From Dillenia suffruticosa (taxonomy: Eukaryota; Streptophyta; Magnoliopsida; Dilleniales; Dilleniaceae): a stretch of DNA of 64,000 nt. Below are positions 10,589-64,000 of the stretch, piece by piece. The stretch lies in the NCBI GenBank assembly GCA_033439265.1, contig JAVTVX010000031.1, forward strand, positions 667,501 to 731,500, in the 5' to 3' direction. Under the pieces are notes generated by a model. It did not search any database and was not told where the DNA came from. It was given only the letters and a program-made list of their open reading frames with translations. Each line of letters begins with the position of its first letter. Position 1 is the stretch's first letter. The position numbers and the translations under genes are program-made.

Positions 10589-10775
10589 CTAAAAGTAAGA
10601 AAAATATCAATAGAATTTGAAATGTACGAAGAAAAGTGAACAAATATATATATCAAACTAGTTAAGCTTCTAAAACTTTAACTAGTCAAAACTGTACATC
10701 GACATCATGATATACAAAAAGCTCAAAAGAAAGTACATCCAAAGAACTACACTGAGGGGTCTGCGGGAGGATTAC
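10589..10775 (-). other. Putative intron between gag and pol of element 1
   Basis: On the minus strand a donor ATGG^GTAATCC at 10775 and an acceptor TTCTTACTTTTAG ending 10589 enclose 187 bases. Excision would fuse the gag and protease frames directly, placing a Gly-Thr-Met junction before the protease. Both sites match the element at 54029 exactly around the splice points, although the middle of the intron has diverged. No transcript evidence is available. Confidence 0.6.
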
Positions 10776-18648: not shown

Positions 18649-18690
<42 letters not shown>

Positions 18691-18703
18691 GTTTGGTGTT
18701 ACA
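15692..18703 (-). repeat. Solo LTR, family B, inserted in the DUF247 pseudogene
   Basis: 3012 bases from TGTCACGCC to GTGTTACA, flanked by a 5-base duplication GTAAA (15687-15691, 18704-18708). There is no internal retrotransposon sequence, so this is a solo LTR left by recombination between two LTRs. In minus orientation it carries poly-A, dyad GCCAAAACG/CGTTTTGGC (18618-18638), dyad GAATTAGGGC/GCCCTAATTC (18584-18607), a CT tract, a GC-rich block (17700-18400), leader-intron signals, a minisatellite (16824-17032) and the hairpin (16276-16297). Long open frames in the GC-rich block are compositional. The matching position in the right arm is empty. Confidence 0.92.
16824..17032 (-). repeat. 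Minisatellite inside the family-B LTR
   Basis: About six units of 37-41 bases, each beginning with CGGCCGGGCATACAGCCC or a close variant and ending in an ATAATATCATAAAG-like linker. The family-B LTR at 45590 has five such units (47236-47408). It lies inside the proposed leader intron III. Confidence 0.85.
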
Positions 18704-18708
18704 GTAAA

Positions 18709-35641: not shown

Positions 35642-35656
35642 TCTCCTTGAAGTATA

Positions 35657-37061
35657 TTAGATGATGTGACTTCTCTTATCAATCCGTTGGCCCAAAACAG
35701 CGCCTACAGCAAAATTGCTTGCATCGCACATGATTTCGAAAGGCAAGTCCCAATTAGGTGGTTGAATGATTGGGGTTATGGTCAATAGATGCTTGAGTTT
35801 ATCAAATGCTTCCTTGCATTGTTCCCCGAACTCAAAGGATACGTCCTTTTGAAGCAACTTAGACAATGGCAAAGCAATCTTTGTGAAATCTTCAATGAAC
35901 CTACGATAAAAACCTGCATGTCCAAGAAAGGCACATATTTCCCTAACATTTGTAGGGTAAGGTAAGCTTTTGATCAAATCAACCTTTGTCTTATCTACCT
36001 CTATACCTCTAGAAGAAATCACATGCCCTAGCACAATGCCTTCCTTCACCATGAAATGACATTTTTCATAATTTAGGACCAAGTTCGTTTCCATGTATCT
36101 TTTCAGAATTTCTATCAAATGTCCTAAGCAATTATCAAATGAGTCTCCATAAACAATGAAGTCATCCATGAATACTTCAATGCACTGCTCAATATATTTA
36201 GAAAATATACTCAACATGCATCTTTAAAATATACCTGGGACATTGCATAGGTCAAAAGGTATCCTCCTATAAGCAAACGTCCCAAATGGGCTTGTGAATG
36301 TGGTCTTTTCTTGATTTTCTTGTCCGATCACAATCTGATAATAACCTAAAAAACCATCAAGAAAACAAAAGAATGATTTCCTAGCTAATCTCTCTAACAT
36401 TTGATCAATATATGGTAAACAGAAGTAATCCTTTCTAGTGGCTAAATTGAGCTTTCTAAAATCAATAACCATTCGCCAATCATTTTGCACTCGCATGAGA
36501 ACCAACTCATTATCTTGATTTCTTACCACCGTGATCCCCGTTTTCTTTGGTACCACATGGATTGTACTCACCCATTTGCTGTCCGAAATTGGGTAGATTA
36601 TTCCTTCATCCAAAAGTTTAAGAATTTCTTTCATTACCACTTCGTTCATGATTGGATTTACTTTTCCTGTATGATTCCTTCACCGGTTTGGCTCCCTCCT
36701 CCAAGTGAATTCGATGCATACAAATTGAAGAACTAATACCCTTTATATCAGCTAAAGTCCAACCAATTGCTATCTTGTATTTCCTTAAAACTTGGAGTAA
36801 CCAAGTTTCTTGTTCATCTATCAATTCTTTTGCTATGATCACGAGCAAGGTTTCTTCATCACCTAAGTAAACATACTTAAGATGATCCGGTAAGATCTTA
36901 AATTCCAACTTTGGAGCCTGTAAAATAGAGGGTAACAATTTTTTATGAGAAATAGGCAATAATGCACTCGAATTCAATGAACTTAGTGGTGGTTCTAATA
37001 TTGGCTCTGAAATTTCACAAGTCTCAGTCATCTCCTCCTTAATGTTCAATTGTGCATCCAA
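35657..37061 (-). pseudogene. pol: Athila-type reverse transcriptase, broken
   Basis: The frame at 37061-36618 holds the protease-reverse transcriptase linker, with LKYVYLGDEETLLVIIA and GWTLADIKGISSSICMH, hallmarks of Athila. The next frame (36649-36224) starts VMKEILKLLDEGIIYPISDS-like and includes WRMVIDFRKLN and GYYQIVI. A stop precedes the frame 36217-35657, which has the catalytic region as EVFMDDFIVYGDSF (Met-Asp-Asp in place of the usual Tyr/Val-Asp-Asp, common in Athila) and CHFMVKEGIVLGH. Confidence 0.88.
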
Positions 37062-41869: not shown

Positions 41870-42930
41870 CCAATTTTCTTGATCAATGGGGGGAAGTTGC
41901 TTTTGAACAACCACAAACCTGCACACCGTCTTTGATTTCCGCTTCATTAAAACCTCCTCTAATATGGCTTCAACTCGCTTTCCATCTTCTTAAATTCTCT
42001 CCTCTTTTCTCGGGATTTTCCATCGTTCATTCTGCACTTCACATATTCACTGTTTCAGAACAGAACTATTAAGCACCGAATTTCTGTTTTCTTGTCTAAC
42101 ACATCCAGTACCTCTCTTCTTGTTTCTATTTCATTAGAAATATTTCCAAACTCCTTCCTCTTCCACTCCTTCAATTTCTCCTCCAGCTTGAAACCATGCC
42201 GCCCATTAATAAAGAGTTTCTCCACCATTTTTCAACTTTCTTGAATCCTTCACCCCACCAGCACCCTAAAAGGCTCAAGGCCCGGCCAATCCACAGAGTC
42301 CACCAACATGATTGGTAATGATCCGATGCAGACCTTTTAAGGCCTAATTGAGTTTGATGCCCCTAATGATCCATCCATTAGCGATTAACCAGGATTCTAT
42401 CCAAGCTACTCATTCGAGAACAAACCCATTCAAAGCCAACACAAAACTTGTAAAATCATCCATTTCCCTGTCCTCACCTCTGCTTCCGTTTCTTTCCTTG
42501 GACTGAATTGGGCTAAAATAAACCCCCACGGACCACAACTCCTCCCATAGTCTTCTCTTTCCCTCTTGATTACTAGGTCCATAGACATCTGCCAAGTTAC
42601 ACCCCATACGCCACAGACAATCAAAAAAAAAAAAAAACTCCTTTTCCTTCTTAAAAATTTCTAGATTCCATATTACTCCAATCCACCTCACCGGTACCCC
42701 ACAAAGATAAAATTTTGTTCCTCTCATTTTGCTTTCTTGAATCATAATGAAAACCAGCCACTTGGTACAAATTCTTCCAAGTTGAATTTTCTGGTTCAAA
42801 CAACTCGTGATCATATTTAGGACCTCCTCCTTACTACAATTCTCTTTAATCCCCATCATCTCTGCCATTTCCCATACTTTCTTTCTGCATCTTGATTTAC
42901 CCTTGTCAATCATTTTCTTGACTTACACAA
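41870..42930 (-). pseudogene. LINE relic, endonuclease to start of reverse transcriptase
   Basis: The minus-strand frame 42913-42410 carries KSRCRKKV, IQESKMRGTKF, DVYGPSNQEGKRRLWEEL and DDFTSFVLALNGFVLE, typical of plant LINE endonucleases. Further frames continue with WPGLKPFRVL, KVEKWWRNS, an FKLEEKLKEWKRKEFGN-like stretch and, near 41950, text like EIKDGVQVCGCSKATSP that matches the start of plant LINE reverse transcriptase. It is longer than the left-arm copy at 21147. There are many stops. Confidence 0.7.
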
Positions 42931-43314
42931 ATAGCAAGTGCTCGAACAAAAATTATCCACATCCTCTTTAAGCCTTACGAGTCAAAAATATTGGAAACTC
43001 AGAGAGCTTTCATGACCAAGAGCACTATGTCAAAGTAAACTGGTTGTTTATATTATCACGTTGTGGACAAAGGATGTTGAAGCTACAAATACTCTAAGCA
43101 CTGCATAAACTCTGAATTTTTTAGTGCACTCTTATATGGGTAAACGTACTAATCATTTTCTACTGCATTGTTTTTCTTTCTTTTTTGCTTTCTTTTTTTT
43201 GGGGGGGGGGGGGTGGTTGATTTTGGCATAGGGAAAGAAGCAGCTTCACCATCAATGTCAACTTATCTCTTAGCGCCAAGACAAACGTTCTTACTTTCTA
43301 CTTTTAGTCTTATT

Positions 43315-45701
43315 TGTCACGCCCCGACTCTCCCGTTGAGCACGAAACAACCGCCGCGTTATCTCGGCAAACGCGCATGACCTCCCCATATACCGAGACA
43401 GCACAAGGCATTCCAATTGTATAATAAATCTTCCAATACACAAATCCCTCAAATAAGAAAATCATAAATATACAGCCCACATGCAAAGGATCCATCTGGT
43501 CCATCACTGTACACACCAGCATGCGTCGGCACACACATTTGGAAAGCGAGTTCCTGTACATGCACGCATGCAGTGTGGCCATCTCAACCAATTTAGAATT
43601 TTCAGTACAAATAAAACATTCCAAAGATATTTCAAATCAAAATGAAAGAAGACTCAAATTATAGTTGTTGATTTAACATTTCAATCCAAATGTTCCAGTA
43701 TAAGATAAAACATTTTTGCAAAAATGGTTCAATAAAAATAATGAAATCCAAAATCATAATCGTCGGCTTTTACTAATACTTGACGAAAAACTCAACCAGT
43801 ATCAGTAAAATCCGCCTGGTATGAGATGTACAAAACTTCCTTTCTATGGTTCTACGTTCTACAATTCCCAAAAATCCTACACTACTAAATACCTATACAA
43901 ATCAGCAAAATATCCTTCGCAAGCTCCAACGTTCGATCTCTGAACTAAGTATTCTCTGAAAAATGTGAGAGATGGATGAGTATTGGGGAATACTCAGTGA
44001 GTGGAGTACAATGGTATGATTGTGTGATTAATGATGAGTGAATTTGTGGGTGTCAAAGTATATCTCAAACAATACTTCATATATATCGAAACATTTTCAA
44101 TAAATCAGATAATTCACAAAGTATGCATCCATATCAAATATTTTTTCAGAAAATCACAAGGGTCCCATCGAAATTACTTCCATCTTGCGTTTGGCCGAAT
44201 CAAGAAAGAAGCCCGCCAAGGGGTTTTCCATATCAGTATTTCAAACACTACCCCCTTCCTTGGCGTTGGCTCGGACCTCTCCGGGGTGCAATCCGGATAG
44301 TCCGACGTGGCATAGAAGAGGCCGCGTATACCTCTCTCGCAATGAAACCCCAACCATGCCACCCCGTCAGGTCGCTCCATGGAGGGAATGACTATAGCCA
44401 TTAACTACTAGCACCATGCATTTCTCAAATATGTCATTTCTCAAGTTATGCGTCATAATTTCTAGCAAACAATCATCAATTTCATGTCATAGCAATTTAT
44501 AGAGTAATATCAAATCACATATGGTACATATGCATTTATAAATATAATGGATGCATTCATACTTTACAATCCAGTTCGGACATCCCACAATCACAAAACA
44601 ATTTATATAAAATATGTAAAAATCTTACAAAATCATTTATAAAACAATTTTAAACTCATTTTGCATATTTATAATACAATGGACCATCCACTCACCTTTA
44701 GAGACGGTATCCACTCCCTATTTCCATAATTCAGTCCAATAAAATCTTACTCTGACCCTCAATTGATTTTCCTAAATCCACAATCACAATTTTTATCATC
44801 AATTTTCCAAATATTTTCAGGGTTATCAATTTTTCCAAATTTTGTACAAATCTTACTTTTCCAATTTATGAATACCCTCTAATGTCATCAATTGCATTTC
44901 ATTATAGATAAATAACATGATCAAAGTCGAGTCTAATTCAACCTAAAAGACCACTCAAAGTAAAAAACAAGCATGAATAGTTAGTCTTCTACAAGGTAAA
45001 ATTTTTTTGAAAAATCATAAATTTTTTAATTCTCATCCAAACGTTTCAAACCATACTTCATTTTCAAGGTGTGAAAATCTAGTTTCATAATACGGAGATT
45101 GTATTTGAATTACCTATATACAAAACAAATTATTATGAAAATGCTATATCAATCCTTAAGCTCTAATCCCGATTTTTAAACTATCCTTCCATATACATAC
45201 CGTTATGCAATTAGCAACTCAAAAACAACCTAAGAAAGATATTGGATGCAACAGTATCCTTCATTCTGCAGAATATTCCATTCTAACCTCAAAATTCTAA
45301 TATTTTCATGCACATTCCAATCGGACTTCAAGAAAAGCTATTTAAACCAACCCAATAAGGTTTTATTATCCTCTAACATGTTCTCTCATACTAGACAACC
45401 TAAATTCGTATAGAATTTCAGACTTAACTCTAATAATCATATATAGAATTTTATAAATGCATTTTATTCAGATCCAACATACATTCTAGGCATATATAGA
45501 ATTTCTCATTCTAAATTAACCCTAGATTCATTCAACTTATCGAAAGGATCAGAAATCCCCTCACCTAGGGTTTCTCGGTTCGCAGACCTAGCTTCACACC
45601 AAGCTTCAAAAAAAAAAAAAAAAAAAACAATATTGGAGACGCAGCGTTTTGGGACAAAACGCTGCGTCCCCAATTGGGGATTAGGGTTAAAACCCTAACC
45701 C

Positions 45702-45745
<44 letters not shown>

Positions 45746-48700
45746 CCCGACGTTCCCTCTCCTGCGGCCGTTCGTCTTCTCCCGCGGCCGTTTGGCTTCC
45801 TCCACCACAGCCGCCGCCACCGCCATTCTCCTCCTTCTTCTTCCCTCTCGGTCACTCTCTCTCCCTTCGCGATCCCTCTCGCGATCGCTCTCTCTTCGTT
45901 GTTCTCTGCCCTCCTCCGCGCGCCACCGCGCGACCCGCTTCCCTGCACAATCGCACCACCCGTGACCTTCCGCAGGCACCACCACCACAGCAACAGTGAT
46001 TCCCTCCCTCGTGCGAGCGTGCGATCACCCGAGCACGCCGTAGCGCGAGCGCGACTGCTCGCGAGCGCGCGACCTTTCTTGCGCGAGCGTGAGCCCGAGT
46101 GCGCCTCAGCCTACGCGGTCCGTGCCCCAGCGTGCACAAGAGCGCGCGGCCCAGCGTGCACGGGTGCGAAGCCCAGAGTGCACGGGCGTGCACGGGCGCG
46201 CGACCCAGCTCACGAGCGCGCGCGGCCCAGTGCACGAGCGTGCGGGGCCCAGCGCACGAGCGCGCAGCAGCGCGCGAGCGCACGCGAGCGCACGCGAGCC
46301 AGCACAGCGGACGGGCGCGCACCAGCGGACGGGCGCGCACCAGCACACGGGACCACCAGCCGCAGGCCCATCAGCCGCAGGCCCGCCAGCCTGCAGGCCC
46401 AGTTTAGCCCATTGGCCCGCCAGCCAGCAGGCCCATCAACCGCCGACCCGTCGACCCGCTAGCCCGTTAGCCCACTGGCCCGCAGACCAGCGAGCCCGCT
46501 AGCTGTAGCCTACAAGCCCTCGATGGCCCGTGACGGTCCGTGAGTTCGTGACAGCCCACGAACCTCCACGCAGGTAAATGACTTAGGGTTTTGTTTCGGA
46601 TCTATGTGTTTAGATCTAACAAATGAACTTTGTTTTGATAGGAAACCCTACAGACTTTGGAGTGATCGAAACGACTTTCGGACGAGACTCGACGCTTCGA
46701 GAAAACCCTAGGTGAGGAGATTTCGACTCTAATTGATAAATTGGACGAATCTAGGATTGAATTTAAGATGAAAGGTTTTGTATATGTTTAGAGTGTAAGT
46801 GGAATGCGAATAGAATACAAATTATGAAATGATTATATATGAATTGAAGGTTAAGTATAGAATGTTACAGAAATTTGATGATCTGATTTAGGTTGATCTT
46901 TTGGAGACTCGAGCGGTCAGATCCGATTTGGCTTGTCAGTAGGGAGTGACTTCCCTCCCGTAGAACAGTGAGTGGGACTTTGACATTCGTTATTGATTGA
47001 AAACCATGTTTCAAAAATACTTCTAAATGACATGTTTCTGCAAATGTATGATTGTTAGACCTTTCCAATATTTGATGAAATGTTTTATGACCTTTGGAGT
47101 GTCTTAACTGCTGACTTTATTGATATGCATCCATGAGTTTTGATAAACATATATTGTGCCATATTTTCGACATATTGATATGTTTTAATGCTTCCACTAC
47201 ATTGGCACATGGTTTTAAATGGATTTATTTACACATTTGGGCTGTATGCCCGGCCGACTTTATGATATTATGTTTTGGGCTGTATGCCCGGCCGACTTTA
47301 TGATATTATGCATTGGGTTGTATGCCCGGCTGACGTTATGATATTATGCATGGGGCTATATGCCCGGCTGATCTGGTGATGGGATGCATGGGGCTACGTG
47401 CCCGGCTGATATGATATTGTGATCCGTAGCTACGAAGGACATCTGGTAGAGGCACCCCTTGTGTCCGGATACGCTTCGGCCGGAGGTATCCGCCAGATTG
47501 TCGTGTGTATGGGTGTCCCAGGTTGACCCTCATCGGAGAGGACGTTGAGTACGGCTCCGTCTAGTACCAGGCGGGGGCACCATACACGGCTGACTAGTTA
47601 TATGTACATTATTATTATTTACAGGCTAGTTGGGGTAGTCTGTGGCCAACATTGGGGCAGAGAGTCATTCTTTAATACTTGCATTTGGAAAAACCCCCAA
47701 TGCGCCGTCCTTGGTCGAGGTAGACCATTGCCGGGAATATTTCATTGGCCGGCTCTTCATGACATTGATGTGAATATTGGATGCATATCTTGCTTTTTGA
47801 TGTGTGCGTGTGACATATGATTTTGGAAATAACATGATCAGTTTGCACACTGTGGATATTTTCTTATCTTATGCTTTGACACTCCAAATTCACCTCGATA
47901 TTGATAGTACGATGTCAATCCCCTCACTTACTGAGTATCCTCCCATAGATACTCATTCCTCACTTTCTTTCCCACAGGATTAGTGTTGGATCGAGGAGAT
48001 ACCACTGGACTTGGGTATGGATATTTTCCATCTCTTCCGCTATGATGATTGATGACATTATTATGTATTGGAGATTTTAGATTGACCAATGTATTTATAT
48101 AAATTTTCTGGGATGAATGTATAAATTATGGACTTTTATTCGCGAAACCTTCGTGTTGATTATTTCATTGCATTGAGGCATTTGTAAATATTTAAAAATA
48201 ACTTGGGAATTTATTTTATATATGCGTAGAATTTAAGTCCGCTCGGTGTGGCGGCTGCTCATGCTCTAGTGGGCATGACAGTAGAGGTCTGTTGCTAGGA
48301 CTGCTAGAAACTTATAGTTTTGCGTTGTTTTGGATGTTGGCTTTGGTATTTGTTGATTTTGGAGAGGCCGGGATGGCCATTTACTTATTTTTCAGGATGA
48401 ATATGATATACAGGTGAAATTGTACTCGGGAAACCTCCGATTTATGGGGAGGTTCTGTCCAATTTTCTGTAAAAATACAGCCAGCATCCAGGGACAACGG
48501 GCGGCTGTTCACGATCCCGGTTTGGGGCGTGACACTGTGCGCTGTTCAATTTAGTCTGGAACCTGCAATGCTTCCAAATTGAAGCAAATTTTAGCAATTA
48601 AACCTAATTACTATTCGAAGCCCTAGAGATAGCATTAGGAACCCATCCTGACTTGTGCATAGAATGGGGTTCGGTCTCGATCTAAGGTTCTGAGGATTTG

Positions 48701-49102
48701 CAGCTAATTGTCGCTTAGGGCTTCGGTGGAGGTCGCAGCAAGGAACGCCGCGCGCAAGTGAGCGAGCGAGGGAGAGGGAGACAATGTGCTGCTATCGCGT
48801 GCGAAAGAGAGAGACAGTGAGTCGCAGGAGAGAGTAGAGAAAAAGAGAGAGAAAAGAGGCGGGACAGTTGTTTGCGGTGGTGGCTTGCCGATGATCGAGG
48901 GAGACGCGGCGCAGGAGGGAGGCGGAGAGTGAGAAACAGAGAGAGAGTGACGAACGAGAGAGAGAGACGGGAGGAAGAGAGAGAGAAATTAAGGCTTTTT
49001 GCCCTAACTTCACACTTGGGAAGAAAGTGCAACATTTTGGTCCAAAACGTTGCGCTTCCTTCCCCCTCTCCTTATTCTCTTTTTTTTTTTTAAGGTATTA
49101 TA
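43315..49102 (-). repeat. Solo LTR, family C, interrupted by a nested LTR
   Basis: Starts TGTCACGCC at 43315 and ends ..GGTATTATA at 49102, flanked by a 5-base duplication TTATT (43310-43314, 49103-49107). Without the nested insertion it is about 2.84 kb (43315-45589 plus 48535-49102). The end base is mutated (TATA for the usual TACA). On the minus strand it contains imperfect dyads near 49029-49053 and 48987-49010, a CT tract, the intron II donor CCCTAG^GTGAGG (near 45568), the intron III donor CTAAAG^GTGAGTGG (near 44698), an acceptor near 43960 and the hairpin (43978-43995). Confidence 0.85.
45590..48534 (+). repeat. Solo LTR, family B, nested in the family-C LTR
   Basis: Ends GGGGCGTGACA at 48534 and matches the solo LTR at 15692 in opposite orientation. 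The 5' edge is worn: TTCACACCAAGCTTC then poly-A stands where TGTAACACCAAACT is expected, so the start is approximate and no target duplication could be confirmed (CTGTG follows the 3' end). It carries a 31-base dyad (45638-45668), dyad TTAGGGTT/AACCCTAA (45681-45698), CT tract, GC-rich block, putative introns I (46574-46641) and II (46712-46891), minisatellite (47236-47408) and hairpin (47933-47954). Confidence 0.85.
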
Positions 49103-49107
49103 TTATT

Positions 49108-49581
49108 GGCCGCCAGCCCTATGCAACAGGAGAACAACGGCACTTGGTTGAAAGAATAATTCTCTTTCCATTTTTCTGCGGTTCTCTAGATTTCTAGGCC
49201 AATCAGATTTGTTCTTCTGTTTCTATTCCTTTTATTCAATTTAGGACTCCATCCAAGGGACATTGAGAATAACTTGCAAGCAATTTATTGAAAAACACTA
49301 TTTTGTAATCCAAGGCAATACTAGGTATCATCTAACGCGTGACAGTCTCTAATTGGTCCCATTATTGTACGAAATAGCCATCAATTGCAGTCAATCAACC
49401 ACGGCCATGACAATTGATGATGCAGATCACAGCATATAGAAAACTGCTCAAAACATACACCAATATCAAAACAAGCAAAACAAAACCCGGAAACTAAAGA
49501 AAAGAAAGAAAATGAAACACTTGCAGGACCAGTAGATGACAGTAGACTTGGAGCTTTCCTAGTTGGTGTTGAGGTGGAGAA
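49108..49581. other. 3' flank of the DUF247 gene
   Basis: Non-coding. On the minus strand this is downstream of the DUF247 stop codon and matches 20284-20750 of the left arm. No clear polyadenylation signal could be chosen. Confidence 0.45.
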
Positions 49582-51273
49582 TCATTCCTTGTAAAGGGGA
49601 TATATGGTATAAATGGTCTGAAGAATAGTAAGTGCAAACAGGAAAATTGCTGCAGTAAATGATAGACATGCCCAGGGGTTTGTAAAGTAGGTGTGCATCA
49701 GATATGCGCGCCATGTATGCAACTTCCGCTTGCAGTATTTGTTGATGTGTTTTTGCACTTTACCTAAGCTGCTGTTTGGTTCAATAGTCAGATCCTCAGA
49801 GATTGAATTGAATAGCCTGGCAACCGCTTCATTGCTTCCCATGGCATTTTGTATTATCTTGCTTTCATGCAGGAGGATAACATCCTTCTCACTGTTTATA
49901 ATATTATCCATGAAAAAAACATATGCAGCCACTTCACCGCCTGTCCCTTGTTGGTGGCCTTCCCCAACATGTAGTCGCTCTAGAGCTATTAGGTTCAACA
50001 ACTCTGACTCTGTAGTGTCATCGATAACCATCATGGGGAGCTTGAGAAGCCCCTTTTCAAATGTTATTTCATCAAGAACGCACTGCCTGGTTGACTCAAA
50101 TTTGATACCGGCCTCATAGAGCTCTATTGCGGAGGGTATGATCTCGACTGTGGAGGGTATGTTCTTGGTCCTTTGAGTCCGAGCTGCCTTGCCAGCGGTA
50201 TCTTCTGTTTTCCCGCTTGCTGCTGCTGGTTTTGGTTTTTGCAGCAGGCATTTTCTATATGCATCCAATATGTGCAAGAATTCTTCCTTTAGCTCTTCTG
50301 GTTTTGGCTTATCTGGTTTTCCTTTTCCCAGCAGCCATTTTCCACATGCTTCCAATATAAGTTCCTCAACCTACATGCACAGTTAAGCAGAGAAACTAAA
50401 ATGAATGTTGATGGGGAGAAACAAAGAAATGTACCATTTTGTGATAAATAAATAAATTTGTCATAATGCTTTAGTTGAGAGTTCTCCTTAGTATTAGCAA
50501 GATTATTTGGAAAGAATTTACTGATACATATCTACAGATCCAAATGAAAGTAGCTTCTTAGAATCAGATCCTTTTTTCTGGATGAAGTCAAAGGCGCCAA
50601 GGGTTTCCTCATATGTTTTTGTGCAACCTCTGCACAGTTGAATATATTTTATCTTTTGCATATTAAAAGTAAAATGGTCTACAGGAAATGTTACCTGCTT
50701 CTCAGGATTTCCAACTGCAAAAAGTTTTTTTAGGGCAAGCATCGGCAACTGGTTTTCCAGCATCAACATGTCACGTTTGATATATGGCATGACATGGAGC
50801 TGTCCATGGTTGCTGAAGATTGGGTCATCTTCAGGATAATCTTTCGGACTTTGAGTGAAAACATTCAAGATTTCTAGCATGAAGCAACCATCAAAGATCA
50901 TTAACTTCAAGAATTTGTCAGTATTGCTTACCCAGGGTTCATCGAGTGAATGGTAGGATTCTTGCAAGTCCTTCACGACTAACATTAGAGCATGCACAAG
51001 ATCCCTGGGAGATTTTTTGCATCGTCTAAGAAATTGGAGAAGGGCTTTGCTCTTGTGAGCCTCCAATTGCTGCAAATTTGGCTCTCCATGGTGGTAAGGA
51101 CCGAAGGAGACAGCACGTGGCACATAAGCTTTCTTGTTTAGCTCCTTAACATAGACCGGTACTTTGTATATGGATGGTCTCTTCCGGGTCTCCTCCATTG
51201 GCGTATTTTCCAAAGCCTGTTCAACACTTACGATCCATTCATCTTCTTCAATATTAACTACCATCTGATCCAT
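49582..51273 (-). CDS. DUF247 (UPF0481) family membrane protein, apparently intact, two exons
   Basis: A plant-specific family of proteins anchored by a C-terminal membrane segment; the molecular function of most members is unknown. The first exon starts at the ATG at 51273 (MDQMVVNIEE) and has VSFGPYHHG at residues 55-63, FLKLMIFDGCFMLEIL and DMLMLENQLPMLALKKL near residues 168-184. The second exon (about 50370-49582) has LKLPMMVIDDTTESELLNL, then a hydrophobic C-terminus (NPWACLSFTAAIFLFAL). The first frame stops at 50518-50520 and the second is open from 50370 with an acceptor TGCATGTAG^GTTGAG. The donor is unclear: CA^GTAAAT gives the wrong phase, while TCT^GTAGAT upstream keeps frame but is weak. 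Length (about 500 residues) suits the family. The copy at 18709 is broken. Confidence 0.8.
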
Positions 51274-51364
51274 TGGATCCCTGGCAGCTGAGCTAGTAGC
51301 AGCTCAATGAATTTCTTCTGTCCAACGAACAGCACTATAAAACCAAAAACACCAATATCCTTTT

Positions 51365-51372
51365 CTTTTATA
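51365..51372 (-). promoter_or_regulatory. Probable TATA box of the DUF247 gene
   Basis: TATAAAAG on the minus strand lies 92 bases upstream of the ATG at 51273, allowing a leader of about 60 bases. In the left arm the region from here to past the ATG is missing, which would silence that copy. Confidence 0.5.
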
Positions 51373-51373
51373 C

Positions 51374-51936
51374 TGTTCGAAGAAGTTCAAATCAATGTAC
51401 AATAGATGCTTTGCGTTGATTAAGGTTCAGTTGAGACATGAGATTGGAATTTGGAACTAATAGGTGACCAATTACTGTTGGTGGGCACTTATTGTTCCTT
51501 TCTTGTGCTACTTAAAGCCTTTCCCAAAGGCCGAGTTTCTTCTTTTTTACAGCTTTACTCTAACTACTGACCCAATAGAAATAAGCTTGTTCTCCAAATC
51601 TTCCCAACGTGATTCTCATGACAAGATTTTTCTGGTCTCCTTTTTCTCATTCCTTCGCATGCCGTGCCACCCAAGACTCACTAATGACAATGACCACACA
51701 TGACAAGGATCAGAGAACTGCTGAAGCCAAGAATCTCCTCTCCAGACATTTTTTGACACAATCACATACATTTTTATGCTTAGAAGCTAACTTCCATGGG
51801 TAAAGGAGCAAGGAGCTGAGAACAAGCTCACAGAAACCTAACCCATGAGTACACCCAAGATGCCATGAGAATGGCTACCCAAAATCCTAGCAAACTACAT
51901 AGATACATGACCAAGAAAAGCATCTAAATTGGATTA
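51374..51936. other. Upstream flank of the DUF247 gene
   Basis: Non-coding. Matches 15237-15660 in reverse orientation up to about 51815. No second gene is visible before the LTR edge at 51937. Confidence 0.45.
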
Positions 51937-54041: not shown

Positions 54042-54072
<31 letters not shown>

Positions 54073-54803
54073 AAAATTAGGGCTTAAAGCCCTAATTCTT
54101 TTTTTTATTTATTTTCTCTCTCTCTCTCTCTCCCTCTCTCCCTCTTTCCCTCTTTCTCCCTTTCTCTTCTCCGCCGCGGCCCCTCTCCCGCCACCGCACG
54201 CCGCCCACTGCGCCACCTTTCTCCCGCGATCCCCGCCGCTGCAGCGCCTCCCGTGAGCAGCCCCTCTCCTCCGCGCAGCGCGATCTCCTACGAGCTGCGC
54301 TAGCCCAGCCGAGTGCGCGACTGTCCGAGCGCTCCACTGCGCGAGCCCACGCCTGCTCGGGAGCTCACTTGCGCACCGCGATCTCCTGCGAACGCTGCCA
54401 CCTCGAGCCATCGCGAGCCTTGTGCGCGATCTCCCGTGAGCCAGCACGAGCTAGCGCACGAGCCAGCGCGCGACCCAGCTCGCGTCCCAGCACGAGCCAG
54501 CGCGCGACCCAGCGCGAGCCAGCGCGCGACCCAGCGCGAGCCAGCGCGCGACCCAGCTCGTGACCTAGAGCGAGCCCTAGCCCGTGAGCGGGCCAGCCCA
54601 CCAGCGGCCCAAGGCCCAGTCCAGCCGCGGCCCACTGCATCCCGCGAAGCCCGCTGCGACCAGCAAGCCGGGCTGAGAGCCCGTGAGCCACCAGCGGGCC
54701 AGCCCGCTAGCAGCCAGCCCACCGGCCCGCGAGCCCGTGACGGCCCGCGAGCCCGCGACCGGCTTTCCCCTGTGAGAGCTCACCTGCATCTTCTGTACTG
54801 CAG

Positions 54804-54890
54804 GTAACGACTGTATTGATTGAAGTTCTATGGTTTGCTGGTAGAAATTTAGTGGTTTCTAATACATCTGAAGTTTGGGAAATATTACAG
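54804..54890 (+). other. Putative leader intron I
   Basis: Donor CTGCAG^GTAACG at 54804 and acceptor AATATTACAG ending 54890, 87 AT-rich bases directly after the GC-rich block. Element 1 has ..GTAG^GTAAATG and ..ACATTACAG^GTTTTAGAC at the same place, and the family-B LTR has CGCAG^GTAAATG and TTTTGATAG (46574-46641). Confidence 0.5.
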
Positions 54891-54948
54891 GTTTTAAACC
54901 AACCCGACGGGCGAACGACAACTAGGTCTGAAACCCGAGGAACCTTAG

Positions 54949-55024
54949 GTGAGAGATGAATAAATTTTATTGATAGAATCCCTTATTAGGGTTTTAATCG
55001 TTATAAATTTGACGATTTGATTAG
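54949..55024 (+). other. Putative leader intron II
   Basis: Donor CCTTAG^GTGAGA at 54949 and acceptor GATTTGATTAG ending 55024, 76 bases, AT-rich. Donors CCCTAG^GTGAG are shared by element 1 and by LTR families B and C; acceptors GATTTAG or GATTAG are shared by element 1 and family B. Confidence 0.5.
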
Positions 55025-55084
55025 GTTTGTCTTTTGGAGAGTCGTTGAAAAAAAAATAGGGAGTGACCACCCTCCCTAGATAAG

Positions 55085-56050
55085 GTGAGTGGGACTCTAA
55101 TCTCTTGCATAAAATAGTAAAACGTATTTTCTGTCGCATTTTCGATAAAACATGCTTTGATATGCATTCGTTGACGTGTGATATTAAATTTGGAAATCTG
55201 TTTTGTGATTTTTGGAGTGTCTTGAATTATATTTGCAATGACTATGCATCCATGGTTTGAGATGAATCAATAGTTGTGCCATTTTTTTGAAAATGTATAA
55301 ATTTCATTTTATACCAATGTAGTGATATGCTGTTTTGAAATGAATTTGATGAGACGTATTGGCACGCAAAATTTAAAAATGTTTTTGATGAACTATGTGG
55401 GTTGGATGCCTACTAGTTGTGCGATGATGTGATGATACTCGTGGGACGTTGTGCCCGGGGACGTTGTGCCCTTGTGATACTATGGGACGTTGTGCCCTTG
55501 TGATATTATGATATTCCGTAGCTACGAAGGGCGTTTGTAGAGGCACGGGTTGCCCGGATACGCTTCTGCAGGAGGTATCCGCAAACGTCATTTATTCTAA
55601 AGGCTATAGGCGCGGCCGGTTGAACCCACGTAGGGGGAGGACGTGTGTGACGCCACCGTCTAGCACCGGACGGGGTCCTATACACGTTGATGAGTTGGCC
55701 CCAGCGAGCTCATGGCCAACGTCGGGGTAGAGAGCGTTTCAAAGTCTATGCATAATAAAACCCCCGACGCGCCTGTCCTTGGTCACGGTTGACCTTTGCC
55801 AGGACTATTTTTGGCTCGCTCTGACATTACTTGATTTTAAATGGATGCATACATGCTTGCTATCGTGTGTTTGATTAAATGATTTCAAAATGATAAATAT
55901 ATCATGTTTTGCTGCGAAGTGTAAATTGTTGTTTCGAATGATATTATTTGACACTCCAATTGTTCACCTATGCTATTTATGCTTGATATTACCCCCCTCA
56001 CTCACTGAGTATCTTCCCATGATACTCACCCCTCTATTTTCTCTCCTCAG
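55085..56050 (+). other. Putative leader intron III
   Basis: Donor AGATAAG^GTGAGTGG at 55085 is close to the ideal plant donor; acceptor TTTTCTCTCCTCAG ends 56050 after a strong pyrimidine tract. The preceding exon-like segment is 60 bases and contains GGGAGTGACCACCCTCCC. The 966 bases removed include the short repeat array and the GAGTATC hairpin, whose right arm overlaps a possible branch point (ACTCAC) about 24 bases before the acceptor. Confidence 0.5.
56007..56027 (+). promoter_or_regulatory. Conserved hairpin near the intron III acceptor
   Basis: GAGTATC, seven-base loop, GATACTC. Equivalent hairpins occur in every well-preserved LTR here: 5223-5243, 13016-13036, 16276-16297, 43978-43995, 47933-47954 and 63854-63874, always next to CACTCACTGA and just upstream of a CT-rich acceptor. 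Confidence 0.7.
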
Positions 56051-56109
56051 ACAGGTTTATTGTGATAGAGCGGTGTTACAGGCTCTAGTGCGGATTTATT
56101 GTTCTGACG

Positions 56110-56870
56110 GTGAGATTTACTTCTAATTTAGTTTCGACCCTGCGAGGTCTTGACATTGAGGTCCGTAGTTGGCCATGTACTTATTTTGGGATGACTGTAT
56201 AGTTTAACTCTCATATTTCATTTGCATTGAGGCGATTGTACGTACTTGAACGTTACTTGGGAAATGTGATATATATTGTATAAACTTAGGTCCGCTCGAT
56301 ATAGCGGCTGCTCATGCTCTAGTTGGGCATGACAGTAGAGGTCTGTGGCTAGGTTTGTTTATAGCCTTGCGTTGTTCTGAATGTTGGCTGTGGTGTTTGT
56401 TGATTTTGGAGAGGCCGGGATGGCCATTTGTGTATTGTACAGGATGATTTGGATTATACAGGTATAATTGTACATGGGAAACCTCCGATTTATGGGGAGG
56501 TTCTGCCCAATTTTCTGTAAAAATACAGCCGGCATTCAGGGGCAACGGGCGGCTGTTCACGATCCCGGTTTGGGGCGTGACAGTTCTATTGGTATCAGAG
56601 CGTCTAGGTTTGAGAAAAGATCAAAGTTTTCCCAAGTATACGCAAAGTTCTCAATGCATTAGAGAGTTTCATACAGCCATTTAAAGTCCCGTACTTGGCC
56701 ATAGGCATATAAGTTCGCCTATTTTATGGAGTTGGATACATAACGCATCTAACTCATTACTTTGCATTCGCATGTTTTAAATCATAGTTCATTTATTTTT
56801 AGGGGGTTAGTTACGGAGTAACTAACCCTAATTCTTGATTTCTATCCGTTGACAATGTATTTTTTCGCAG
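56110..56870 (+). other. Putative intron IV from LTR end to gag start
   Basis: Donor TCTGACG^GTGAGA at 56110 (also in element 1 at 12933) and acceptor TTTTTTCGCAG ending 56870, five bases before the gag ATG. The acceptor position is conserved in element 1 and in the family-C element at 3481. Splicing here would remove the primer site, so the product could be translated but not reverse transcribed. Confidence 0.45.
56590..56601 (+). other. Primer binding site of element 3
   Basis: TGGTATCAGAGC, initiator tRNA-Met type, seven bases after the LTR end. Confidence 0.9.
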
Positions 56871-56874
56871 AATT

Positions 56875-58316
56875 ATGCCACCTAGACGTGGTAGGAGAGG
56901 TGCTAGATTCGCCTCACTTGAGGGTCTTACAGTGCCTGATACACCTAGGGCACCTGAGGCACCACGAGTACCAGAGGTTGCTTCCTCTACTCGAGCACGC
57001 TCACCAGCGCCACCCCCAGCACCTCCACCGGCTGCTACAGCCGAGATTCCTCCACCACCACTCGATGCCTTGAGACAATGGCAGGAGTGGTGCAGTAGAT
57101 ATGGGGCGCAGATGCCACCACCTTCACTACAGACTCCAGCGACCGCACCTGCGGCCGTACCTGCTCCTTCGGCACCGATTCTTCCTTCGGTGGCCGGCCC
57201 TTCCGTGTCTACCCCGACCGACGAGACGTCGGCTACTTTGAGGCGCATCCATGAGCTCACTCAGTTAGTGAAAGAGTCACGGCAGCTCGGATGCACAGAT
57301 TTTCGGGATCCAGTGATACAGTAGCGGCGAAACACTGGATCAACAGGATTCGTAGGATCCTTACGGATTTGGGGTTGTCAGAGGAGCTCAGATTGAGAGT
57401 TGCTGAGAGACTCCTCGACGGAGATGCCCTCTCGTGGTGGGAGGCTATCTGTGACAGTGCCACACAGACCCTGCGGTGGGAGGACTTTTTACGAGAGTTC
57501 GACCGCAGGTACTTTACCCCGTTCCAGCAGGACCGGATGAGGACGGAGTTCCTGCACTTACGTCAGGGGACGAGGTCAGTTTCAGAGTACGAGGCCGAGC
57601 TTAGACGACTAGCGGCCTTTGTCCCCGATATGGCTACACCGGTTCAGTTGAGGTTCAAGTTTGAAGATGGCCTCCAATTGAGCATCAGGAAATATATGAC
57701 GGTGACTCCCTCTTTTACACTATCAGAGGTGATTGATTCAGCGTATCGGGCGGAGGAGATCGTCCGAGCGGAGGCGAGACAGAGGGAGAGTCACCAGAAG
57801 AGGAAGACTGGGTCACAGAGTGGACAGTCTTCGAAGAGGGGTAGAGGTTCTGGATATCCCGGAGGTTTTTCTAGCTTCAGACCAGCAGCACCGGGACAGG
57901 GACCTCGACCACAGGGCTTTGGGGCACCAGCCCCTAGTGTCTCTACACAGTCTACTACACAGAGACCGCCCTTCTGCCGTAGATGCAACTGTCACCATGC
58001 CTTTGGGGCATGTAGAGCACCAGTTACTTGCTTCCAGTGTGGGAAGCAAGGGCACGTTAGGAGTGTTTGTCCCGATTTAGGTCGGGGAGGATCGACTTTA
58101 CAGAGTCGTACTGGTACGTCTGGTACAGGCCAGCAGGGGGCACCTGCGCACTCAGCTCTTACCTCTCCCCGGACTGCAGCCGGGAGTAACACAGTGCCAG
58201 GATCGTCGCGACAGCAGCCTAGGGCCCAGGCTCGTGTGTTTGCGATGACACAGGAGGACGCACAGGCAAACCCTGATGTTATTATGGGTAATCCTCCTGC
58301 AGACCCCTCAGTGTAG
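56875..58316 (+). pseudogene. gag: Gag of element 3, frameshifted once
   Basis: The structural polyprotein that forms the particle. The first frame (56875-57324) is Pro/Ala-rich after MPPRRGRRG. The second frame (open through 57291-58316) holds the capsid-like domain (AAKHWINRI, LSWWEAI, FDRRYFTPFQQ, LRQGTRSVSEYEAEL) and the nucleocapsid knuckle CFQCGKQGH...C at residues 247-260 of that frame, with a second Cys/His cluster (CRRCNCHHAFGAC) just before. Compared with element 1, one base is missing at about 57298-57305, so the first frame ends in an unrelated tail and stop. No canonical slippery heptamer is present. The last codons (NPPADPSV) are read only if the following intron is retained. 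Confidence 0.9.
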
Positions 58317-58480
58317 TACTTTTGTGTACTTTCTGTATGAGCTTATTGTATATCATGATGTCGATGTACAGTTTTGACTAGTTAAAGCTTTAGAAGCTCA
58401 ACTAGTTTGATATATATATATATATTCGTTTACTTTTTCTTCGCATTTTAAATGCCGTTGATCTTCTTTCTTACTTTTAG
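58288..58480 (+). other. Putative intron between gag and pol of element 3
   Basis: Donor ATGG^GTAATCC at 58288 and acceptor TTTCTTACTTTTAG ending 58480 enclose 193 AT-rich bases with a (TA)n stretch. Joining puts the G at 58287 with GT at 58481-58482 to make one Gly codon and continues in frame into the pol ATG at 58486. The unspliced RNA stops at 58314-58316, giving Gag alone. The same arrangement exists in element 1. Confidence 0.65.
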
Positions 58481-58485
58481 GTACC

Positions 58486-61400
58486 ATGCGAATATTCGGT
58501 ATCGATGCCCGTATTCTCATAGATACTGGGTCAAATTTTTCCTATGTAAGCGATACGTTCGCTTGTCATTCTGATAGACCTCTCTCGCCACTTGATGCGG
58601 AGATTTTGGTAGTCACTCCTCTTGACAAGCATATTGCTCGAGATACAGTCTATAGGAGCTGTGAGGTCGGAATTGGGGAGACAGTATTAGAGGCAGATCT
58701 TATTCCGCTCCCTATCACGGATTTCGATGCCATCCTAGGGATGGATTGGCTGAGTTTACACCGGGCTTCCGTGGATTGTTTCACGAAGGAGGTTGAGTTT
58801 AGGAGGTCCGAGCAGCCACCGTTAGTATTCCGAGGCGAGAGACGAGTGTTGCCTCGCAGTATTATCTCTGTTATGAAGGCCAGACGTTTGGTACGCCATG
58901 GTTGTGCGGCTTACCTGGCTTATGTTGTCGACACCACCGTTGAGGGACCGAGGCTTGAAGATGTCCCTGTGGTGCAAGAATTTTTAGATGTGTTCCCCGA
59001 GGAGCTTCCCGGATTACCACCAGTTCGGGAGTTCGATTTCGAGATTGATTTAGTACCGGGGACCAATCCTATTTCTATTCCGCCATACAGAATGGCGCCT
59101 GCTGAACTGAGAGAGCTTAAAACTCAGTTACAGGAACTTCTTGACAAGGGGTTTATTCGTCCGAGCACCTCACCTTGGGGCGCTCCGGTACTGTTTGTAA
59201 AGAAGAAGGATGGTACATTTCGGCTTTGTGTGGATTACAGGCAATTGAACAAAGCCACCATCAAGAACCGATATCCCCTGCCTCGTATCGATGACTTGTT
59301 TGATCAGCTGCAGGGAGCTAAGGTTTTCTCTAAGGTTGATCTCCGTTCGGGTTATCATCAGTTGAGGATTCAGGCCGAAGATGTGCCCAAGACAGCTTTT
59401 CGCACCCGATACGGCCATTACGAGTTTCTAGTCATGCCGTTTGGGCTGACTAATGCCCCAGCTGCTTTTATGGATCTGATGAACCGAGTTTTTCACGACT
59501 ATTTGGATCGGTTCGTCATCGTATTCATCGATGACATCTTGATATATTCACGGAGCGATGAAGATCATGTTCAGCACCTTCGGGTGGTATTACAGATACT
59601 CCGTGAGAAGCAGCTATATGCCAAATTCTCAAAATGTGAGTTTTGGCTAAGACAAATTGGATTCTTGGGGCACATTGTCTCAGCGGAAGGTATTTATGTT
59701 GATCCGCGGAAGGTTGAGGCTATAGTGAAGTGGGAGCAGCCACAAACAGTTACCGAGATTCGTAGTTTTCTCGGTTTGGCCGGGTATTATCGCAGATTTG
59801 TAGAGGGATTCTCCCGGATAGCTGCTCCGTTGTCGAGATTGACCCAAAAGGGGGTCAAGTTTGCTTGGGATGACCGTTGTGAGGCAAGCTTCCAGGAGCT
59901 CAAACAACGGTTAACATCCGCCCCTATTTTAGCCCTTCCCACTAGTAGTCGGGAGTATACAGTGTACAGTGATGCTAGCCAACAGGGATTGGGTTGTGTT
60001 CTGATGCAGGATGGTCGGGTTATTGCGTATGCCTCGCGACAGCTGAAGAAACACGAGGGTAACTACCCGACACATGATTTAGAGTTGGCAGCCATAGTCT
60101 TCGCGTTGAAGATATGGCGGCATTATCTTTATGGGGTAACCTGCAGGGTATTTACCGACCACAGGAGTTTGAAATATCTGTTTACCCAAAAAGAGCTGAA
60201 TTTGAGACAGAGGAGATGGTTGGAGTTATTGAAAGACTATGATATCATTATTGACTATCATCCGGGCAAGGCAAATGTTGTAGCAGATGCCTTGAGTCGG
60301 AAGTCAGCATCATCCTCACAGTCGACAGAGAAAGCCTACCTTTCTTGTTTAGTGGGACTCCGAGCCTTAGGAGTCAGTTTGACTAACGATGATCAGGGAG
60401 GCTTATTAGCCAGATTTGAGGTCAGGCCGACTTTGTTCGACCGTATCAGGGAGCTCCAGAGTACGGATGAGGAGATCCAGGCTATTGCAGATAGAGTCCG
60501 CAGAGCTGAGGGCGGAGACTTTAGAGTCCGTGATGATGGACTCATGGTATTCAGAGACAGAGTGTGTATTCCGGCCGATAGTGATCTTCGGCGTGCTATC
60601 CTTGAGGAAGCACATTCTTCTGCATATGCTATGCATCCCGGGGGTACGAAGATGTATCGGACCATCAGAGGTAGCTACTGGTGGTCAGGCATGAAGAGGG
60701 ATATAGCAGAGTTTGTGGCACGATGCTTGGTGTGCCAGCAGGTGAAGGCCGAACATCAGCGTCCAGCGGGCACACTGCAGCCTCTTCGTATTCCTGAGTG
60801 GAAATGGGAGCATATTACTATGGATTTCGTGATGGGATTGCCTCGGACTTCTACACGGCATGATGCGATTTGGGTGATTGTCGATCGACTCACCAAATCC
60901 GCGCATTTCATCCCTATCCGCAGTGACTATTCTTTAGAGGCGTTGGCACGTCTCTACATTGATACCATAGTTCGACTTCACGGGGTACCTGTGTCGATTG
61001 TTTCAGATAGGGACCCCAGGTTCACATCTAGGTTTTGGCCCAAATTGCAGGAGGCATTGGGTACTAGATTGAATTTCAGTACGGCATATCACCCTCAGAC
61101 GGACGGCCAGTCTGAGAGGACCATTCAGACCCTTGAGGACATGCTGAGAGCATGTGTGATGGATTTCCGGGGTAGTTGGGATCGGCACCTTCCACTAGTC
61201 GAGTTCGCATATAATAACAGTTATCAAGCCAGTATAGGGATGCCCCCGTATGAGGCACTATATGGCAGGAAGTGCCGCACCCCGATATGCTGGGATGAGG
61301 TCGGAGAGCGACGTCTCAACAGCGTTGAGTTGATTGAACAAACAAAGGATAAAGTTAAGGTTATCCGTGAGCGGATGAAAGCCGCCCAGGACAGACAGAA

Positions 61401-61863
61401 GACGTATGCTGATCGTAGGCGGCGACCTCTTGAGTTTGCTACGGGAGATATGGTTTTCTTGAGAATATCTCCCTGGAAGGGAGTTATACGGTTCAGGCAG
61501 CGGGGCAAGTTGAGCCCTAGATATATTGGGCCCTTCCGTATCCTTGAGAGGGTCGGGAGTGTGGCATATAGATTGGAGCTGCCAGATGAACTATCCCGCA
61601 TTCACGACGTATTCCATGTCTCAGTACTCAGGAAATACTTGACCGATCCTTCTCATGTACTTGAGCCTCCACCTCTTGAGTTGCGAGAGGATCTTCGTTT
61701 TCCAGTTCAGCCCGTGGCTATTCTAGATCGACAAGTCAGGAAGCTACGGAGTAAGGAAATTTCATTAGTCAAAGTTTTGTGGAGAAGTGATCAGGTCAAG
61801 GAGGAGACCTGGGAGCAAGAGGAAGCTATGAGGAGTCAATACCCCCATTTATTTACAGTGTAA
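58486..61863 (+). CDS. pol: Intact Tekay/Del-type Pol polyprotein
   Basis: 1125 residues without a stop. Domains: aspartic protease with DTG at 13-15; reverse transcriptase about 170-400 with [11 protein letters not shown] and catalytic FIDD (Asp349, Asp350); RNase H about 485-605 with Asp496, Glu533 and Asp558; integrase with HHCC zinc finger (His710, His717, Cys747, Cys750) and catalytic Asp780, Asp841, Glu877 in D-D35-E spacing; GPF-type segment near 1015; C-terminal chromodomain about 1077-1123 ([12 protein letters not shown]...ETWEQE). The chromodomain lacks some cage aromatics of classical chromodomains, as in other plant chromoviruses. The chosen ATG may never be used as a start if the gag-pol intron is spliced, since reading would enter from gag. 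Confidence 0.95.
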
Positions 61864-61911: not shown

Positions 61912-64000
61912 TGTAACACTGCACAAAAAAAAAAAAAAGTCAAAATTAGGGCTTAAAGCCCTAATTCTTTTTTTTATTTATTTTCTCTCTCTCTCTCTCT
62001 CCCTCTCTCCCTCTTTCCCTCTTTCTCCCTTTCTCTTCTCCGCCGCGGCCCCTCTCCCGCCACCGCACGCCGCCCACTGCGCCACCTTTCTCCCGCGATC
62101 CCCGCCGCTGCAGCGCCTCCCGTGAGCAGCCCCTCTCCTCCGCGCAGCGCGATCTCCTACGAGCTGCGCTAGCCCAGCCGAGTGCGCGACTGTCCGAGCG
62201 CTCCACTGCGCGAGCCCACGCCTGCTCGGGAGCTCACTTGCGCACCGCGATCTCCTGCGAACGCTGCCACCTCGAGCCATCGCGAGCCTTGTGCGCGATC
62301 TCCCGTGAGCCAGCACGAGCTAGCGCACGAGCCAGCGCGCGACCCAGCTCGCGTCCCAGCACGAGCCAGCGCGCGACCCAGCGCGAGCCAGCGCGCGACC
62401 CAGCTCGTGACCTAGAGCGAGCCCTAGCCCGTGAGCGGGCCAGCCCACCAGCGGCCCAAGGCCCAGTCCAGCCGCGGCCCACTGCATCCCGCGAAGCCCG
62501 CTGCGACCAGCAAGCCGGGCTGAGAGCCCGTGAGCCACCAGCGGGCCAGCCCGCTAGCAGCCAGCCCACCGGCCCGCGAGCCCGTGACGGCCCGCGAGCC
62601 CGCGACCGGCTTTCCCCTGTGAGAGCTCACCTGCATCTTCTGTACTGCAGGTAACGACTGTATTGATTGAAGTTCTATGGTTTGCTGGTAGAAATTTAGT
62701 GGTTTCTAATACATCTGAAGTTTGGGAAATATTACAGGTTTTAAACCAACCCGACGGGCGAACGACAACTAGGTCTGAAACCCGAGGAACCTTAGGTGAG
62801 AGATGAATAAATTTTATTGATAGAATCCCTTATTAGGGTTTTAATCGTTATAAATTTGACGATTTGATTAGGTTTGTCTTTTGGAGAGTCGTTGAAAAAA
62901 AAATAGGGAGTGACCACCCTCCCTAGATAAGGTGAGTGGGACTCTAATCTCTTGCATAAAATAGTAAAACGTATTTTCTGTCGCATTTTCGATAAAACAT
63001 GCTTTGATATGCATTCGTTGACGTGTGATATTAAATTTGGAAATCTGTTTTGTGATTTTTGGAGTGTCTTGAATTATATTTGCAATGACTATGCATCCAT
63101 GGTTTGAGATGAATCAATAGTTGTGCCATTTTTTTGAAAATGTATAAATTTCATTTTATACCAATGTAGTGATATGCTGTTTTGAAATGAATTTGATGAG
63201 ACGTATTGGCACGCAAAATTTAAAAATGTTTTTGATGAACTATGTGGGTTGGATGCCTACTAGTTGTGCGATGATGTGATGATACTCGTGGGACGTTGTG
63301 CCCGGGGACGTTGTGCCCTTGTGATACTATGGGACGTTGTGCCCTTGTGATATTATGATATTCCGTAGCTACGAAGGGCGTTTGTAGAGGCACGGGTTGC
63401 CCGGATACGCTTCTGCAGGAGGTATCCGCAAACGTCATTTATTCTAAAGGCTATAGGCGCGGCCGGTTGAACCCACGTAGGGGGAGGACGTGTGTGACGC
63501 CACCGTCTAGCACCGGACGGGGTCCTATACACGTTGATGAGTTGGCCCCAGCGAGCTCATGGCCAACGTCGGGGTAGAGAGCGTTTCAAAGTCTATGCAT
63601 AATAAAACCCCCGACGCGCCTGTCCTTGGTCACGGTTGACCTTTGCCAGGACTATTTTTGGCTCGCTCTGACATTACTTGATTTTAAATGGATGCATACA
63701 TGCTTGCTATCGTGTGTTTGATTAAATGATTTCAAAATGATAAATATATCATGTTTTGCTGCGAAGTGTAAATTGTTGTTTCGAATGATATTATTTGACA
63801 CTCCAATTGTTCACCTATGCTATTTATGCTTGATATTACCCCCCTCACTCACTGAGTATCTTCCCATGATACTCACCCCTCTATTTTCTCTCCTCAGACA
63901 GGTTTATTGTGATAGAGCGGTGTTACAGGCTCTAGTGCGGATTTATTGTTCTGACGGTGAGATTTACTTCTAATTTAGTTTCGACCCTGCGAGGTCTTGA
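61912..64000 (+). repeat. 3' LTR of element 3 (family A), cut by the window end
   Basis: 2089 bases present, about 430 expected beyond the window. Matches the 5' LTR except for a shorter poly-A run (14 against 28) and one fewer minisatellite unit of about 22 bases (near 62400). Contains the dyad at 61944-61966 and the hairpin at 63854-63874. Confidence 0.95.

Follow-up and report, generated by a model that had tools for sequence, protein, structure and literature searches.

In a 64,000-nucleotide (nt) stretch of the Dillenia suffruticosa genome (contig JAVTVX010000031.1, positions 667,501 to 731,500 of the forward strand; this whole stretch is called the window hereafter), a long terminal repeat (LTR) retrotransposon of the Ty3/gypsy superfamily carries a short segment between its gag and pol reading frames. 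The best explanation overall, and in our judgement a very probable one, is that this segment is a gained and still-spliced intron, whose retention would give Gag and whose removal would give Gag-Pol. The exact intron, the split at the same place in further families of elements, the exact and recurrent loss of the segment and the fused frames left after that loss are all seen directly in the DNA. The reading of the gag-pol gap as a spliceosomal GT-AG intron is strongly supported by sequence comparison, because further families are cut at one and the same codon, in two cases by an intron alignable with no other, and because the segment has been removed exactly and repeatedly from other copies.

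A first-pass annotation of this DNA had proposed a frame-exact GT-AG intron here, with exon bases 58287 and 58481 at its borders, and both the coordinates and the splice sites were verified. At the donor, ATGG^GTAATCC, the final exon base is 58287 and the first intron base 58288; at the acceptor, TTACTTTTAG^GTACC, the last intron base is 58480 and the exon picks up at 58481, the intron thus interrupting a GGT (Gly) codon in phase 1. Frame exactness was tested by Pfam on each side separately, without joining gag and pol. The 63-residue Gag end has a single match at E values up to 10, to positions 4-25 of RVP_2, which is weak when taken alone (E 0.011, under the curated cut-off) and located where expected, and the pol side aligns with positions 28-134 of that profile (E 2.8e-25). 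Codon for codon, Gly, Thr, Met, Arg and Ile fall on positions 24, 25, 26, 27 and 28 free of gaps; on this alignment the gag tail and pol are contiguous on RVP_2 at zero offset, which bears out the earlier statement that no residue is lost on joining gag to the protease. The intron is 33% GC and 44% T, and the 150-nt flanking exons are 53% GC and 26% T. It is located upstream of the protease, unlike the Ogre-type position between protease and reverse transcriptase (RT).

The same intron recurs in the family to which the window element belongs (F1). A second copy in the window, element 1, was said to carry the same donor and acceptor around a drifted intron, and this proved correct: compared with element 2, the element described above, its intron is 86.7% identical and its 800-nt flanks are 94.5% (upstream) and 89.4% (downstream) identical. 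Among 30 close F1 copies, the window copy included, GT and AG are both present in 30 of 30, while among 17 older copies found by an intronless query, AG stands at the expected place in 16 and GT in 12; the other five retain the spacer with the expected GT gone, in one case through a one-base shift, as expected from the decay of old copies. Three of the older copies (L088, L092 and L096) have in common a G-to-A substitution of the base that opens the intron, through either shared descent or repeated deamination. Across 55 F1 copies the intron measures 186-203 nt, with two outliers at 164 and 211 nt. The branch-point consensus is yTnAy, and in these 55 copies the branch-point-like TTGAT has an invariant second T and A, the base between them being variable. 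Acceptor conservation in loci L045-L074 was excluded from the evidence because these loci had been selected through the acceptor pattern.

Further families were reached in the 596-Mb genome assembly with a protease query taken from an uninterrupted relative; 150 places were scored and 18 fetched, two of them intronless and 16 spacer-bearing, the latter sorting into F2 (nine copies), F3 (two), F4 (three), F5 and F6 (one each), with proteases 54-75% identical to that of the window element. All 16 spacer-bearing copies are split at the same codon as the window element and have GT and AG at the ends that homology defines, an agreement which, judged on the sequences, is more than chance. The donors read GTAATC in F1, GTACTC in F2, GTAACC in F3, GTGCTA in F4, GTAAAT in F5 and GTAATA in F6, and the introns measure 205-246 nt in F2, 207-217 in F3, 169 in F4, 134 in F5 and 353 in F6. 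When one copy per family is aligned, the introns of F1, F2 and F3 share sequence, F4 is marginal, and those of F5 and F6 match no other intron above shuffles. In single copies from F1 to F5 the T fraction of the intron is 0.40-0.44 versus 0.23-0.27 in the exons. A yTnAy motif is found 15-50 nt from the intron end in six of six families (one copy each), a weak test since the motif is so loose that chance often satisfies it. Scans of viral contigs yielded no relatives in other plants.

One representative of each of the six families has an in-frame stop 6-14 codons on, counted from where the split Gly codon begins. It is conceivable, if unlikely, that the intron is spliced and yet a tolerated passenger, the Gag to Pol ratio being set otherwise, for example by an early-ending Gag-only RNA. 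Persistence of the intron requires only that unspliced RNA be the usual template, and the weak +5 position of the donors might be drift. Such a passenger role sits poorly, however, with the six-family stop, which automatically makes the retained RNA a Gag-only message, and with the preservation of the split codon in families whose introns are unalignable.

The second line of evidence for a spliced intron comes from copies that lack it. Empty sites were sought with a 30-nt pattern allowing up to 3 mismatches, the reversed pattern serving as control. In F1, 14 empty sites were found versus 510 places matching an acceptor pattern of like length (reversed control 0), and in F2, 43 versus 266 (controls 0); these are raw counts, uncorrected for copies that multiplied later. 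Because fixed patterns are blind to inexact loss, mismatch-free searches with variable spacing were added: with the flanks allowed to lie 0-30 nt apart, the exact spliced spacing was found in 9 of 9 F1 places and 15 of 15 F2 places, and no F1 place had its flanks 31-60 nt apart. When an intronless query was used for a similarity search, 40 places could be scored, of which 15 lack the spacer, 25 have it and none is intermediate; 13 of the 15 were already known and the two that were new to the pattern are both exact, and the 25 spacers are 186-203 nt long, one reading 173 owing to an incomplete match. An F5-like copy (L133) is likewise exactly fused and intronless.

Eight of the intronless places have one open frame of 1290-1611 codons, stop-free in the matched part, and many others have shorter or broken frames. 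The first-pass annotation had held that related active copies with separate gag and pol and no donor or acceptor would speak against an intron; this was checked in part, and none keeping the two frames apart without GT...AG was found among the families examined; in each of the three intronless copies whose junction was read (L105, L106, L133), gag runs on into pol in a single frame. The exact intronless copies look like spliced RNA that was then reverse-transcribed and, being exact and recurrent, indicate at the level of DNA that a spliced product exists.

Trees of the F1 copies hold 69 rows, of which 15 are intronless, and the best tree needs at least 6 changes for the upstream piece and at least 11 for the downstream piece; a single intronless clade is rejected for both (p 0.00026 and 0.00013, respectively). 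Descent of all intronless F1 copies from one ancestral lineage had been allowed by the first trees for nine old copies and was rejected by denser sampling for 15. A young intronless trio (L032, L033 and L038) is nested among intron-bearing copies, beside L020/L021 in the downstream piece, and at most diagnostic columns, of which the nearest are -121 and +17, it has the alleles of L020, an intron-bearing copy; the exceptions are -238 and, with disagreement within the trio, +385. The F2 tree mixes 10 intronless with 9 intron copies, the trait showing no more clustering than chance (7 changes versus a shuffled mean of 6.6), and a single intronless clade is again rejected (p 0.0002). The intronless L105 matches intron-bearing copies at 98-99% identity, and L106 matches others of them at 97-98%. 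On these phylogenies the intronless copies are scattered among intron copies and loss is recurrent, with the caveats that branch support is low and that template switching between RNAs is another way in which the trait can become dispersed. Rows with an incomplete junction (L057-L060, L094) or long branches (L047, L037) were dropped, and 20 near-identical loci were omitted from trees and column counts. Contig C4 of this genome has two tracts, 9.2-10.6 Mb and 18.0-18.5 Mb, where neighbouring F1 and F2 copies are repeated every few tens of kb, as if in large tandem segmental duplications.

Such losses could in principle arise without splicing. If gag and pol were distinct genes sharing an RNA and pol were translated from the ATG at 58486 by re-initiation or internal entry, the spacer would be no intron and spacer-free copies would be products of repeat deletion or of recombination with uninterrupted relatives. 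A direct repeat does flank the spacer (the 4-bp GGTA in F1, the 7-bp GGTACTC in F2), deletion between its two copies would give the same product as splicing, and uninterrupted relatives are present in the genome, though distant. However, F1 offers 200 pairs of direct repeats of at least 4 bp, this one among them, that are able to give deletions of 60-300 nt, and no other large loss appears in the 40 scored places or in 75 intron copies (the shortest of 55 measured being 164 nt), nor any other loss at F1 spacings of 0-60 nt, flank-eating losses being invisible to spacing searches. The L020 alleles shared by the young trio, the zero-offset protein contiguity and the GT...AG at homology-fixed ends also count against separate genes, and the ATG at 58486 is not kept as a start, its place being taken by Leu in F2. 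We regard this arrangement as highly improbable. Repeat deletion or recombination as the source of exact loss is unlikely on the spacing, the repeat counts and the sister alleles; a short conversion tract between -121 and +17 could still account for the young F1 losses.

Several observations weigh against a still-spliced intron or restrict its reach. The evidence for splicing lies wholly at the DNA level, and all split copies derive from a single genome, F5 and F6 being known from one split copy each (L109 and L118). None of the six family donors has G at +5, which fits partial splicing and could also mean poor splicing, and the T fraction of the single F6 intron (0.33) equals that of its exons (0.33). 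The exon columns of F1 copies show little codon-position bias and give no clear sign of frame selection in these mostly dead copies. With regard to loss, the empty-site pattern searches covered F1, F2 and F3, and the F3 search found none. Well-supported branches alone force 4 (upstream) and 3 (downstream) changes in F1 and only 2 in F2, and for the 11 oldest intronless F1 copies a single clade is not rejected upstream (p 0.15; downstream p 0.023). Finally, the same small set of differences recurs in several of the intronless F2 places, and part of these copies may thus stem from multiplication once the intron was gone.

As for the origin of the intron, five uninterrupted copies of four kinds, with RT identities of 63-74%, were obtained from assemblies with bacterial names and have a single frame through the junction, L078 with a stop some distance upstream of it and a frameshift downstream. 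These copies (L075-L079) sit on short contigs in bacterial assemblies and have plant-type chromovirus sequence; they are probably plant contamination. Two others of different kinds that are open through the region (L080, L081) and one without a readable element there (L082) were left out. In the D. suffruticosa genome itself, five members of a distant family likewise read uninterrupted through the junction. The protease tree places the uninterrupted contaminants and F1-F6 on opposite sides of a branch with support of 95/98, with long branches among the uninterrupted rows. From the uninterrupted relatives and this split we infer a gain of the intron, most likely once and before F1-F6 parted, with root, single origin and timing all read from the tree rather than observed.

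The mechanism that we propose begins with an ancestor of this putative chromovirus group that would have gained a spliceosomal intron in the Gly codon of the gag-protease junction, where splicing would continue today. Unspliced RNA would yield Gag alone, owing to the stop 6-14 codons past the split codon, and would also be the usual template for new elements; the intron would persist because it is normally the unspliced RNA that is copied. Spliced RNA would give an uninterrupted Gag-Pol reading, and weak splice sites would keep splicing partial and set the Gag to Pol ratio. Occasional reverse transcription and integration of spliced RNA would then leave intronless copies. It is from sequence comparison that we infer splicing in present-day cells, the assignment of each RNA to its protein and control of the ratio by partial splicing.

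Element 2 runs on the plus strand from about 54056 to past 64000 (Table 1). Its LTR pair has no mismatches and a single 22-nt gap across 2098 aligned columns, and since mismatches are absent this intron-bearing element is very young. The primer-binding site is presumably of the initiator tRNA-Met type; we take this type and LTRs of about 2.5 kb to be compatible with Tekay, as a candidate label only. The gag open reading frame (ORF) matches Retrotrans_gag (60.7 bits), Ty3_capsid (38.4 bits) and, weakly, zf-CCHC, and its stop lies 169 bases from the ATG of the pol ORF. Protease, RT, RNase H, integrase zinc domain and Tf2-1-like SH3 matches are clear in pol, the integrase core rve scores 17.6 bits (curated cut-off 32.6; the match is clipped by the query-piece boundary), and the C-terminal chromodomain match is weak (Chromo 21.0 bits, curated cut-off 25.1). 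Elsewhere, the window contains inverted pairs of long homologous segments, 86-98% alike, at 15334-21628 and 42439-51717, the latter enclosing a DUF247 gene read as two ORFs (49582-51273, minus strand), and remnants of another element at 34847-36217 on the minus strand, with RT, RNase H and integrase zinc domain matches.

Table 1. Coordinates in the window of the two introns, their putative signals and the parts of element 2
Feature	Position	Strand	Remarks
Phase-1 GT-AG intron, 193 nt	58288..58480	+	Ends fixed by homology; exact loss in other copies
5' splice site GT	58288..58289	+	GTAATC, without G at +5
3' splice site AG	58479..58480	+	
TAG terminating Gag upon intron retention	58314..58316	+	
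Branch-point-like TTGAT	58458..58462	+	A at 58461, 20 nt before intron end
Pyrimidine-rich tract	58463..58478	+	
5' LTR	54056..56587	+	Ends approximate
Primer-binding site TGGTATCAGAGC	56590..56601	+	
gag ORF, 341 aa	57291..58316	+	With retained-intron tail and own TAG at end; exon 1 up to 58287
Exon 2 with pol	58481..61863	+	ATG-to-stop ORF 58486-61863, 1125 aa
3' LTR	61925..64000	+	Clipped by window end
Intron of element 1, 187 nt	10589..10775	-	Donor and acceptor identical to element 2

The first-pass annotation knew of no intron described at this junction, in agreement with the open-licence literature searched, in which, among the papers listed and judged by titles, the starts of abstracts and some passages, no description of an intron at the chromovirus gag-protease junction was found. 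The rice centromeric Gypsy element CRR is a chromovirus. According to a passage in PMC3735527, CRR has a spliced RNA from which rt is removed and two ORFs are created; it is thus a plant Gypsy element with a spliced RNA, the difference being that its splicing removes rt. In a 2025 review (PMC12786077), plant LTR elements are described as generally intronless, with Ogre and EVADE as exceptions. For Ogre (Ty3/gypsy, Tat), passages in PMC6317226 report that partial splicing between the gag-pro and RT ORFs permits translation of the whole polyprotein, and that the spacer averages 274 bp. As in Ogre, the intron described here lies between two ORFs and its removal joins the upstream ORF in frame to the rest, at the DNA level in our case; unlike here, Ogre is not a chromovirus and has its intron after the protease, whereas an intron before the protease would let unspliced RNA give Gag alone.

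In comparison, the Ty1/copia elements BARE1 and EVADE use splicing in the opposite direction. The barley element BARE1 has, according to PMC3735527, a 104-nt alternative intron near the gag end whose splicing shifts the frame and yields Gag alone, and DNA copies of its spliced RNA are reportedly not amplifiable. It shares with the present case a small intron near the gag end of a plant LTR element, but on that account the direction is reversed, for here removal fuses gag and pol and exact intronless copies occur by dozens. In Arabidopsis EVADE/EVD, splicing that removes the protease domain gives the short Gag RNA shGAG (passage in PMC12786077); tuning of Gag to Pol by splicing in a plant LTR element would be common to both, while EVADE, as described there, belongs to the other superfamily and follows the opposite logic, its splicing making the Gag-only RNA. 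Bianca (Ty1/copia), in a passage of PMC6317226, has two ORFs and a 172-bp spacer, so that it resembles the window element in having two ORFs and a short spacer and differs in superfamily; that passage makes no mention of splicing.

A long-standing question is how LTR elements with gag and pol in a single long frame produce Gag in excess of Pol, and here an intron stands exactly at the Gag/Pol divide in six families of the one genome surveyed. Introns in elements that replicate through RNA are expected to vanish fast; the persistence of this one implies that the replicating RNA is mostly unspliced, and because the genome itself roughly counts the failures (14 versus 510 and 43 versus 266), the choice of template becomes something that can be studied from DNA. 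It seems reasonably likely that a sub-lineage of plant chromoviruses made one gained gag-protease intron its switch between Gag and Gag-Pol, retaining the split codon through a turnover that left the intron sequences unrecognizable and using unspliced RNA as template, as retroviruses do, with leaked spliced RNA yielding fused copies that may move or compete.

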